Assembly (NCBI GenBank): GCA_944329375.1
Contig: CALVIB010000008.1
Location: 1 to 44,170 of the forward strand
DNA: 44,170 bases
Direction of reading: 5' to 3'
Origin: an uncultured Bacilli bacterium
GTDB lineage: Bacteria > Bacillota_I > Bacilli_A > RF39 > UBA660
Shown here in pieces: positions 10,709-44,105 of this stretch (positions are counted from its first letter, which is position 1; each line of letters begins with the position of its first letter). Under the pieces are notes generated by a model. The model worked only from the letters and a program-made list of their open reading frames with translations. It was not told the DNA's origin and did not search any database. Position numbers and translations under genes: made by a program.

Positions 10709-12085
10709 CTACATCTCCTTTATTTCATCAATTAAACTTATAAACTCATTTTGTATTTCTTCTAATCTTTTTTTAGTTTTAGCTTCAAATCTAACAGTCA
10801 AATCTGGACCTGTATTACTAGCTCTAACTAAAGACCAACCATCATCAAATGTAACTCTAATACCATCTATTAATGAATATTCATATTTCTTTTCTTTTGA
10901 ATATTCTATTACCTTATCAACTATTTTAAATTTATTTTCATCAGTTACTTTAATTTTAATTTCATCAGTAGAAAAATAAGAATTTACTCCATTAAATAAT
11001 TCACTTATTTTTTTATCAGTATGTGAAAGTAATTCTATTATTCTAAGAATGCCATAAATACCATCATCGAACCCTAAATACCTATCTTTAAAAAATAAAT
11101 GTCCAGAGTATTCGCCACCAAAATCTAAATTATTATCATTTACATAACTTCTGCAGTAAACACTGCCTGTTCTATTCATGCATGGCTCTAAACCAAGTTT
11201 TTTAATTTCATCAATTAAACTCATTGAACATTTAACATCAAAAACTCCTTTTTTAACCTCCATAGAATTAGCTAAAGCTCTATAAAATAAAATCATAATC
11301 ATATCCGCAGACATAAATGTTCCATCCTCTAAAACAAGACCACATCTATCTGCATCCCCATCAATAGCTAATCCCAAATCATAACCTAATTCTTTTACCT
11401 TTAACCCTAAATCTTTCAAATTATCCTTAACCGCTGGGTCTGGAATATGATTAGGAAAATTAGAATCACTTTCAGCATATAAAAGTTCATATTCTATATT
11501 AAATTCTTTTAAAATACTTTCCATAAATATACTACCAGTCCCATTACCACAATCAATAACAGCTTTAATCTTTCTATTTCCAAAACTTAAAGACTTCTTC
11601 AAATTATCTAAATAAAAAGGAAAAACATCTTCATTAATAACAGTACCTTTACCACTTCTAAAGTCATAACACTCTAAATAATCTTCAAACTTTCTAAGCT
11701 CATCACCATATAATGAATCATTTTTTTTAATAGACATTTTAAAACCATTATATTCCTTAGGATTATGACTAGCTGTAACCATTATACCAGCATTAACTCC
11801 ATAAAATATCTTCGCAAAATTATGCATTGGTGTTGTTACTAAACCCAAATTAAGTATATTAACTCCACTATCCAATATTCCTTGCATTAAAGCTGGATAT
11901 ATTTCTAAATGACTTTTTCTATTATCATGACCCAATATTACTTTAGTCTCTCCAAGCTCAAAAACATAGCTTCCAAAAGCTCTACCAATAGTATAAGCCA
12001 CATCCTCATTTAAATCTTTACCATAAATTCCCCTAACATCATATTCTCTAAAAATTTTAAAATTAATTTCTTTAGTTATTTTCAT
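10709..12085 (-). CDS. phosphomannomutase/phosphoglucomutase family
   Basis: A 458-aa alpha-D-phosphohexomutase interconverting hexose 1- and 6-phosphates, thus supplying precursors for nucleotide sugars. Visible motifs are FREYDVRGIYG at the N-terminus, the active-site serine loop TASHNPKEYNG (~105-115), metal-binding DGDADRCG (~242-249), sugar-binding GEYSGHLFFKD (~325-335) and the phosphate-binding ASNTGPDLTVRFEA near the C-terminus. All are intact. Whether Man or Glc is preferred cannot be decided. GGAGG precedes the ATG, and the adjacent capsule operon is its likely consumer. Confidence 0.92.
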   Translation of the reverse strand: MKITKEINFKIFREYDVRGIYGKDLNEDVAYTIGRAFGSYVFELGETKVILGHDNRKSHLEIYPALMQGILDSGVNILNLGLVTTPMHNFAKIFYGVNAGIMVTASHNPKEYNGFKMSIKKNDSLYGDELRKFEDYLECYDFRSGKGTVINEDVFPFYLDNLKKSLSFGNRKIKAVIDCGNGTGSIFMESILKEFNIEYELLYAESDSNFPNHIPDPAVKDNLKDLGLKVKELGYDLGLAIDGDADRCGLVLEDGTFMSADMIMILFYRALANSMEVKKGVFDVKCSMSLIDEIKKLGLEPCMNRTGSVYCRSYVNDNNLDFGGEYSGHLFFKDRYLGFDDGIYGILRIIELLSHTDKKISELFNGVNSYFSTDEIKIKVTDENKFKIVDKVIEYSKEKKYEYSLIDGIRVTFDDGWSLVRASNTGPDLTVRFEAKTKKRLEEIQNEFISLIDEIKEM

Positions 12086-41541: not shown

Positions 41542-43447
41542 AAATATGTTTAGAATTTGCAAAACTACTATTTGAACTAAATGAATCAACGATTTTACCA
41601 GTACCATCTATAATCATAATATTCCCATTAGTATTCATCTTTAAAATATATTCGGTATTGCTAAGCTGTACTCCTTGCTCAATGTTAATTTCCCTGATTA
41701 AATCATTATAATCAAAAAATATACTTTTACTAACCATTTCTTTTCCAAATTTTTTAATTAACTCTTTTATAAAAACTTCCATTTGATTATCATTAATTCT
41801 ATAAATAATAACAGGCTGCTTATTACCTTGTAACATAATAAATTCAAAATCTTTTTGTTCTTCTTTTTTTAAAGAATCACTAGTTTGAGATGTATCAGTA
41901 ATATTAAAACCATCTACGATATCTGCAAATTCTTCATCACGATCATATAATTTATCTATAAAAATTTCAATAATTTCATCCTCATCATCAACATTATCAG
42001 CAAAAAACTTTATTGTTCTAATAACTTTATCAATTTCAAACTTTTTAAGTTTATCTCTATTACCTCTAGAAAAAAAGCTATACCAATTCGGATTACGACG
42101 TAAAATTAATTTTAAAATATTTTTAGTATTGTCTAAACCATGTCTACTTGTTGTTTCTTTAATAGCTGAAATCAAAGTATAGAAAAGACCTTGTTTCTTT
42201 TGAACACTATTATTTTCTAAAGATAAATTATCTATATGAATATTAGATGAAGTTTCTTCTTGATGTTTATCAGTAACATTAAAACCATCTACGATATCTG
42301 CAAATTCTTCATCACAATCATATAATTTATCTATAAAAATTTCAATAATTTCATCCTCATCATCAACATTATCAGCAAAAAACTTTATTGTTCTAATAAC
42401 TTTATCAATTTCAAACTTTTTAAGTTTATCTCTATTACCTCTAGAAAAAAAGCTATACCAATTCGGATTACGACGTAAAATTAATTTTAAAATATTTTTA
42501 GTATTGTCTAAACCATGTCTACTTGTTGTTTCTTTAATAGCTGAAATCAAAGTATAGAAAAGACTTTGCTTCTTTTGAACACTCTTACCATTTATATCTG
42601 TTGGATCTGCGGATGCTAGATATATTATTTGGGTATCTTTATCTATTTGTTTTACTCTCGCACTTTTTCCATCGCCTGTTTGTCCATGAAGCATCACTGG
42701 TATATCACTTAATATAGCTCCTTCTATAATATCTTCTTCATCTAATTCTTCTAAATCTAGGTTATATGGATTAGGCGTTTCTTCAAATAAAGTTTCAATC
42801 TCATCATTTGAATATTCTCCATCTGGTTTTAATGAATTTATAAATTCATTATTTAAAAATTGATATAACTTTGAAGTTTCAAAGTGACCATCATAATTTG
42901 GATTATCTATATTTATTGGTGCATTAAATAATACATCTTTAGATATTAACATATTATTTTCTCTATCAACATAAAATTTTACTGGCTTTACTTTATAATA
43001 TTTGCCTTCTTTATTAACATATTTTTCTCCATTATATTCATATTCTAAATCTTCATATAAGTAGCCAAAGTAATAAAATAAATAATATTTTTTACCTGTT
43101 GGTTTTAAGTTTACATTATTAGGTATATTGAACTGTACTTCTAAATCAGGATACTGTCCATATTCTACAACTTCAACACCATTTTCATATGTTATTTTTA
43201 AATTTCTGATTAAATCTTCTAGATTATCAGATTTTAGAACTGGGCGGACGCCGTACCTAAGGCAAGTATTGCCGAAGTCAAGCTCGCCAGAAGAAGTCAC
43301 ACGAAACTCGTCAGAGATGTTCCAACTGTAAAATAACGACGGCGTACTTGTCCAATAATCATAATCACAACCTCGTCCTACTTTTTCTAAAATTTTTGAT
43401 TTGCCCTCTACTTCTTCTTTTGACAATAATGTTACTTCTATATTCAT
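41540..43447 (-). CDS. chimeric protein: GVRP cassette, DUF6273-like part, truncated MoxR-type ATPase, duplicated unknown domain
   Basis: A 635-aa composite. Residues ~1-75 look like the C-terminal end of a DUF6273/C-lectin-like domain (DYDYWTSTPS ... YGVRPVLK) encoded by unusually G+C-rich DNA. Residues ~76-235 resemble the start of a similar domain (VEYGQYPD, KYYKVKPVKFYVD). Residues ~240-287 begin a MoxR-like AAA domain with Walker A HGQTGDGKS (~253-261) and IIYLASADPTDINGKS, but no Walker B, sensor or arginine finger follows. Instead a ~105-residue unknown domain occurs twice (289-392 and 414-518), then a unique tail. The ATG at 43447 after AGGTG starts inside a domain, so the gene is probably 5'-truncated. 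ATPase activity is unlikely. Confidence 0.65.
   Translation of the reverse strand: MNIEVTLLSKEEVEGKSKILEKVGRGCDYDYWTSTPSLFYSWNISDEFRVTSSGELDFGNTCLRYGVRPVLKSDNLEDLIRNLKITYENGVEVVEYGQYPDLEVQFNIPNNVNLKPTGKKYYLFYYFGYLYEDLEYEYNGEKYVNKEGKYYKVKPVKFYVDRENNMLISKDVLFNAPINIDNPNYDGHFETSKLYQFLNNEFINSLKPDGEYSNDEIETLFEETPNPYNLDLEELDEEDIIEGAILSDIPVMLHGQTGDGKSARVKQIDKDTQIIYLASADPTDINGKSVQKKQSLFYTLISAIKETTSRHGLDNTKNILKLILRRNPNWYSFFSRGNRDKLKKFEIDKVIRTIKFFADNVDDEDEIIEIFIDKLYDCDEEFADIVDGFNVTDKHQEETSSNIHIDNLSLENNSVQKKQGLFYTLISAIKETTSRHGLDNTKNILKLILRRNPNWYSFFSRGNRDKLKKFEIDKVIRTIKFFADNVDDEDEIIEIFIDKLYDRDEEFADIVDGFNITDTSQTSDSLKKEEQKDFEFIMLQGNKQPVIIYRINDNQMEVFIKELIKKFGKEMVSKSIFFDYNDLIREINIEQGVQLSNTEYILKMNTNGNIMIIDGTGKIVDSFSSNSSFANSKHI
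41894..42208 (-). repeat. 315-bp direct repeat, copy 2 (coding order)
   Basis: Nearly identical to 42269-42583 at an offset of 375 bases, with only about four substitutions seen by eye. It is in frame and encodes LFYTLISAIKETTSRHG through the acidic end VDGFNITD. Confidence 0.92.
42269..42583 (-). repeat. 315-bp direct repeat, copy 1 (coding order)
   Basis: The upstream coding copy; a 60-base unique spacer (42209-42268) separates it from copy 2. Its first residues directly follow the AAA fragment's NGKS, which marks the fusion point. Confidence 0.92.
43242..43350 (-). other. G+C-rich GVRP cassette inside the chimeric gene
   Basis: By hand count 56 of 109 bases are G or C, about twice the surroundings, and the boundaries are sharp. 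It encodes TSTPSLFYSWNISD through CLRYGVRP. The pattern W-S/T-S/T ... G ... GVRPV is that of C-lectin-fold ends, including targets of diversity-generating retroelements. No reverse transcriptase or template repeat is in the window. Confidence 0.5.
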
Positions 43448-43523: not shown

Positions 43524-44105
43524 TTGAAGTGCAACACTTTCCAATTTGAAAAAAGACCTGAAAACATCAATAATCGCACGGAATTTGGCCATTTTGAGAT
43601 TGATACAGTCATAGGCAGTAATAAAGGTATTCATAGTTGTTTACTAACTATGACTGAGCGTAAAACAAGATTTGAAATAGCTTTAAAAATAGAATCAAAG
43701 TCATCAGAATCAGTAGTAAAAAAAGTTAATCAATTAAAAGTTTATTTGAAGAAAAATTTCAGTAAAATCATTAAAAGTTTAACCACTGATAATGGTAGCG
43801 AATTTAGTGATTTTCTAGGTATCATTTCAGATACTGATACAAAAATATACTTCTGCCATCCATACGCATCTTGTGAAAAAGGAACTAATGAAAGACATAA
43901 CGGAATACTTAGATACTTTATTCCAAAAGGAACAAACATAGATGATTATTCGCTTAAATACATTAATAATTCAGTTAACTGGATGAATAATTATCCAAGA
44001 AAAATTTTAGATTATAAAACACCAATTGAAGCGTTAAAAGATGAGTTTCAAAATGAAAAATTATTAAACAAAATATTAAATATACAAAAAATGGTTAATG
44101 CATAA
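43524..44105 (+). mobile_element. IS30-family transposase, 5'-truncated remnant
   Basis: About 190 residues of the IS30 DDE catalytic domain: GHFEIDTVIGSNKG (first Asp), TMTERKTRFE, TTDNGSEFSDF (second Asp), and HPYASCEKGTNERHNGILRYFIPKG with the catalytic Glu. The N-terminal helix-turn-helix region of a full (~330-380 aa) enzyme is missing; the open frame begins at a TTG with no binding site. The bases AATTTAAATTTGAAGTGCAA at the 5' edge resemble an IS30 terminal repeat, suggesting an internal deletion. No matching right-end repeat is seen before the window ends. The 44106-44170 tail shows nothing I can assign. Confidence 0.8.

Follow-up and report, generated by a model that had tools for sequence, protein, structure and literature searches.

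The question that this locus raises is why a very A+T-rich gene of an uncultured Bacilli bacterium contains a sharply bounded G+C-rich island. The original prediction, made from the window (the complete 44,170-nt stretch of DNA under analysis, which is all of contig C8), proposed as a hypothesis that the island is a variable region of a diversity-generating retroelement (DGR). The answer that we favor, with a probability of roughly 0.8, is that the island constitutes a remote variable repeat (VR), which was written by a DGR from cDNA anchored by a 3′ motif and resides in a permuted N-terminal domain. DGRs as such are already known; the new aspects here are the permuted N-terminal target and the arrays of templates (TRs).

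The G+C-rich island and its genome

The island, at positions 43242-43350, has a G+C content of 51.4%, against 25.7% for the window and 26.4% for the gene, and is the highest-G+C stretch of 109 bases in the 44 kb window, which bears out the compositional part of the prediction. About 50% G+C over 109 bases is reached from just 19 start positions, in three places of the window. At codon position 3, the G+C content is 57% in the island and 14% in the gene overall. The island lies on the minus strand, within an open reading frame that has an ATG at 43447 (Table 1), and encodes the peptide YWTSTPSLFYSWNISDEFRVTSSGELDFGNTCLRYGVRPVLK; originally assigned to the C-lectin-like end of the protein, it actually corresponds to residues about 32-70, that is, to the N-terminal end.

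The genome is a MAG of 1.19 Mb in 48 contigs, 81% complete, and the target gene is located 0.7 kb from the end of C8. At this contig end, beside the target gene, positions 43524-44105 of the plus strand hold a fragment resembling a transposase, whose integrase core matches rve at 6.9e-10. The link between C8 and contig C7, which is considered below, rests on binning only. When checked for contamination, the UvrC encoded on C8 is 94% identical to that of the sister species G017 and 89% identical to that of G016, and the FeoB and reverse transcriptase (RT) encoded on C7 are, respectively, 86% and 84.5% identical to those of G017; the identities of both contigs to G017 are compatible with a single genome, short of proof.

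A DGR in the same genome

As the original prediction stated, the window lacks an RT. The search of the genome for a DGR-type RT and a template that it proposed reveals a complete DGR on C7, comprising a DGR-type RT (the only RT of this genome), bAvd, three tandem TRs and a cognate target. In the order of transcription, the locus consists of a 938-aa target with a terminal VR, TR1-TR3, bAvd, a 218-aa protein and the RT. The RT contains the motifs IGNETSQ and YMDD, which conform to the DGR type ([IVL]GxxxSQ, YxDD), and matches RVT_1 at 2e-18, and the bAvd gene is recognized by Pfam with E=1.5e-12. Between the cognate VR and TR1, 8 of 29 template adenines and 1 of 75 other bases are changed; one of the 8 adenine changes is a deletion, because of which the assembled gene for the 938-aa target is frameshifted.

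Among named records, two RT relatives come from MAGs of uncultured Bacilli. A viral origin of this DGR was considered and rejected: IMG/VR contains no relative of the RT and none of the N-terminal domain, and the chromosomal neighbors of the DGR on C7, FeoB-like and radical-SAM genes, are the same in G017.

The window VR compared with the TRs

The window VR and the C7 DGR are on separate contigs, at least about 12 kb apart. The VR aligns with TR1 without gaps over its entire length; of the template positions, 15 of 29 adenines but only 8 of the 75 remaining bases are changed (Fisher p=2e-5), and each of the 15 adenine changes is at codon position 1 or 2, as are 28 of the 29 adenines. A search of the genome with the window VR yields matches to the TRs and the cognate VR only, at 79-80% identity. 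The window VR terminates in the motif CGGCGTCCGCCCA, as does TR1, and the 3′ IMH-type motif reads GGCGTCCGCCCAG in the VRs, that of the window included, and GGCGTCCGCCCAA in the TRs, so that a mutagenic-homing-type end, which had been proposed as a feature to look for, is present in VR-specific and TR-specific forms. Given the ungapped match to TR1, the shared end motif and the adenine bias, the window island is identified as a remote VR. Together with the RT, bAvd and three TRs in the same genome, the strongly adenine-biased differences between VR and TR support the original DGR hypothesis, and neither of the two outcomes that were to refute it was observed; the island is, judging from sequence comparison, almost certainly the VR of a DGR.

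The expected template, nearly identical and differing mainly at adenines, was found in one respect only: the changes are indeed concentrated at adenines (p=2e-5), whereas the near-identity at other sites that would be expected of a recent copy does not hold, with 8 of 75 differing. The exact template was not found in the genome, each TR tested leaving at least 8 non-A changes. Across the genus, comparison of each main VR with a TR from its own genome gives 0-2 non-A and 6-16 A differences; the 8 non-A changes exceed the former range, which implies that the immediate template of the window VR is absent from the assembly. Comparison of the TR1 of G017 with that on C7 reveals differences at 9 of 75 non-A sites; TRs thus drift about as fast as the 8 changes in the window VR would require. 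An older or missing TR would fit as the donor, and the assembly, at 81% completeness, may lack the actual template.

Table 1. Coordinates of the target gene, its variable repeat and the associated elements. Positions refer to the window unless a locus is named.
Feature	Position	Strand	Remarks
Target gene, 638 aa	41540..43456	-	Permuted DUF6273 with VR, truncated MoxR-type AAA segment, duplicated C-terminal module
DUF6273 C-terminal half, holds VR	43235..43369	-	Profile 124-168; E=0.0095 for the piece alone
VR, 104 nt	43240..43343	-	Ungapped match, from 43343 down to 43240, to TR1 of the C7 DGR; adenine bias, Fisher p=2e-5
IMH-like VR 3′ end, TACGGCGTCCGCCCAGTT	43238..43256	-	CCCAGTT in VRs vs CCCAATT in TRs
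Weak candidate hairpin just downstream of VR, in coding sequence	43205..43231	-	DNA fold z=-2.35; 4/200 shuffles equal it; tentative
DUF6273 N-terminal half, placed after the VR half	42830..42958	-	Profile 3-50; E=2.5e-6
Walker-A part of MoxR-type AAA (GQTGDGKS...NGKSV)	42563..42733	-	Shorter than in intact 644-aa relatives; phrog_1297 ATPase 1.6e-5
Three non-coding TRs of the C7 DGR	L006 about 11326-11432, 11166-11277, 10800-10905		Between cognate target and bAvd

A permuted domain in a rearranged gene

In the window protein, Pfam DUF6273 matches residues 27-71 with the C-terminal part of its profile and residues 164-206 with the N-terminal part (Table 1). A genus HMM, built from 13 ORFs at DUF6273 matches and controlled with shuffled sequences, finds the same swap in the window protein, the G016 copy, two paralogs on contig C5 (C5a and C5b), the copies from G017:C18 and G023 and both MoxR relatives described below, although several single pieces score no higher than shuffled sequences (top shuffled score, 6.9 bits); in the main targets, the same HMM finds the normal order of the halves. 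The DUF6273/C-lectin-like domain of the window protein is thus, on the evidence of these profile matches, very probably circularly permuted, with the C-terminal half coming first, and it is due to this permutation that the VR is N-terminal. A single-sequence AlphaFold2 model (pLDDT 36) is too poor to judge the C-lectin fold.

A complete AAA domain was not found in the window protein: the AAA segment ends after NGKSV, whereas the domain is intact in the relatives from G017 and G020. Downstream of the Walker-A part, the gene runs into a duplicated module, an in-frame direct duplication of 358 nt (41891-42248 and 42266-42623, 91.6% identical); C-terminal modules resembling it occur in other proteins of the genus. 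The truncated AAA domain and the internal duplication imply that the gene may be decaying or misassembled, and we regard it as a rearranged, perhaps dying, member of its family. PADLOC gave no convincing defense match for the target.

Relatives of the target

Stand-alone proteins from the same genus, 230-320 aa long, match residues 1-206 of the window protein; four of them are encoded on C5 of this genome and others in G016, G023, G017, G013, G020 and additional genomes. The copy from G016 has an N-terminal VR with 55% G+C that is 83% identical to a VR-like sequence at the DGR of its own genome. In other, older copies, including the paralogs on C5, GVRP is retained but the codons are A+T-rich and the G+C excess is gone, which looks like erosion after rewriting has stopped. 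Some genomes of the genus encode more than 20 DUF6273 proteins, and additional G+C-rich VR-like ends with the exact motif are found in canonical DUF6273 proteins on scattered contigs of G028 and G031 (L049, L051 and L052).

The relatives from G017 and G020 are 644 aa long and consist of the permuted domain followed by a complete MoxR-type AAA domain, with an adjoining vWA-like gene. Between these two MoxR genes, 14 of 72 bases of the VR block are different, compared with 50 of 1863 outside it (p=3e-8); all 14 of the VR-block differences involve an A in one of the two species, and 12 are at codon positions 1-2. A template for this VR was found in neither of the two draft genomes. G132 represents another genus of the family; here, a gene of this kind has a DGR-type RT gene directly upstream and is followed by a DUF2201/vWA gene. 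The N-terminal VR beside this RT (L170, 6206-6460) contains a TAA stop, possibly the product of an A-to-T change.

Alternative explanations

Could the island be a plain compositional or horizontally acquired G+C-rich segment without any connection to a DGR? The sharp step in G+C is what such a segment would produce, but the 79-80% match to sequences of this very genome, the TRs and the cognate VR, with its adenine bias, refutes this explanation, to which we assign next to no credence. Alternatively, ordinary recombination or gene conversion, rather than retrohoming, might have brought in the island from the main target, given that YWT..TPS...GVRPV and a short 3′ flank are common to both genes; this, too, appears very improbable because the window VR lacks the variable residues and the other flanks of the main VR, and its differences track template adenines.

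A different kind of alternative, which we give only slightly less than even odds, accepts past writing by a DGR but holds that the VR is a fossil, copied from a vanished TR and no longer changing, within a gene that is rearranged and possibly dying. The best TR still leaves 8 non-A differences, the AAA domain is truncated, the gene contains the 358-nt internal duplication, and the paralogs on C5 display a later stage of the same erosion. Moreover, a strong hairpin downstream of the VR is absent: in most of the species checked, the main targets have a hairpin with a perfect 8-bp stem, located at the stop codon and 62 nt past the motif, whereas only a weak candidate follows the window VR (Table 1), and such a hairpin is required in BPP-1 (PMC3240598). 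Yet, the reading frame of the window gene is open, its VR retains 57% G+C at third positions, compared with 14% for the gene overall, and the VR still ends in an intact 3′ motif. That the window VR is still being rewritten is conceivable, with the odds somewhat against it.

As for its origin, the window VR was probably copied in trans from the DGR lineage on C7, by retrohoming that we infer to act in trans. The RT of this DGR would copy TR RNA into cDNA, with errors at adenines; the shared 3′ motif GGCGTCCGCCCA would anchor the cDNA, which would then replace the VR of target genes, one adjoining the DGR and the other being the window gene on another contig. The window VR would encode the ligand-binding end of the permuted DUF6273 (C-type-lectin-like) domain, and its direct donor would have been a TR that is now lost or unassembled.

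Relationships to known systems

The system on C7 shares with the canonical DGR of Bordetella phage BPP-1 (Mtd, Avd, TR and RT) an SQ-type RT, bAvd, a TR, A-specific changes, a common 3′ initiation motif, a lectin-like variable domain and an 8-bp-stem hairpin after the main VR. It differs from the BPP-1 type in having three tandem TRs rather than one, and the window target differs in being remote and carrying its VR at the N-terminus. The hairpin of the main target is located 62 nt from the VR and has a GTAA loop; in phage DGRs, the distance is 4-34 nt and the loops are of the GRNA type (PMC3240598).

DUF6273 reportedly resembles a C-type lectin (PMC10743442). In the phage DGR targets with this domain (tentaclins and those of Faecalibacterium prophages), the VR lies in the C-terminal end of DUF6273 (PMC10743442, PMC11792537), which is also the part of the domain that holds it here; those proteins are described as having an N-terminal DUF6273 followed by Fn3 or Ig, the available portions of the two reports include no permutation (PMC10743442, PMC11792537), and N-terminal VRs are noted there as rare in phages (PMC10743442). 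Unlike these targets, the window protein has the halves swapped, its gene is cellular, and its relatives are fused to a MoxR-type AAA. The MoxR-vWA ternary conflict systems with DGR-diversified sensors (Kaur 2020, PMC7159879; Thiohalocapsa, PNAS 2024, PMC10907252) are similar in combining a MoxR AAA with vWA partners, a DGR-diversified lectin-fold domain and remote targets rewritten in trans. In those systems, the variable domain is C-terminal, often in the vWA protein, whereas here it is permuted and fronts the AAA protein itself, the AAA of the window protein being truncated. The MoxR fusion and the adjoining vWA genes suggest that these small-genome Bacilli have a diversified intracellular sensor; by analogy (PMC7159879, PMC10907252), the VR might supply a variable binding loop to a sensor signaling through MoxR/vWA, a role for which we see a nearly even chance.

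In a survey of DGR targets, VRs were found to be near-universally C-terminal, which was tied to the DNA hairpin required after the VR; this survey was contig-based, and remote targets were beyond its detection (Roux 2021, PMC8144416). A permuted domain, which places an N-terminal VR within coding sequence far from the RT, is a way to break the C-terminal rule, and the window VR offers a test of the need for a hairpin.

Arrays of templates in the genus

Next to the DGR, three TRs are found in G000 and in G017, two in G021 and four in G026, with one seen in each of G014 and G031, and the donor of the main VR is TR1 in G000, TR3 in G017, TR1 in G021 and TR4 in G026. The genus carries arrays of one to four TRs, in which the position that donates to the main VR differs between species. 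Multiple TRs at one locus are already on record (PMC6642488); among open-licence papers, we found no published tandem TR array with a varying donor position. If the TRs of an array donate in turn, this would add a second layer of diversification, the choice among templates. Tentatively, and at somewhat less than even odds, we propose a cellular DGR lineage in which a multi-template array rewrites in trans a permuted lectin-like sensor fronting a MoxR-type AAA, breaking the C-terminal-target rule, with different templates providing different loop scaffolds for one VR.

The first of the four TRs in G026 (L050, G026:C19, near 3263) is adenine-poor and resembles an already mutated VR, as if the TR position itself had been rewritten. 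At L084 (5738), a locus of the G016 genome, the main VR runs directly into a TR-type 3′ end, and no separate TR was seen at this locus; the template may have been lost through a VR-TR deletion. In G017 (L042, G017:C2, about 86729-87032), a second, TR1-like VR copy immediately follows the stop-codon hairpin of the main target, with the 3′ flank repeated, and may be a trace of integration at the hairpin.
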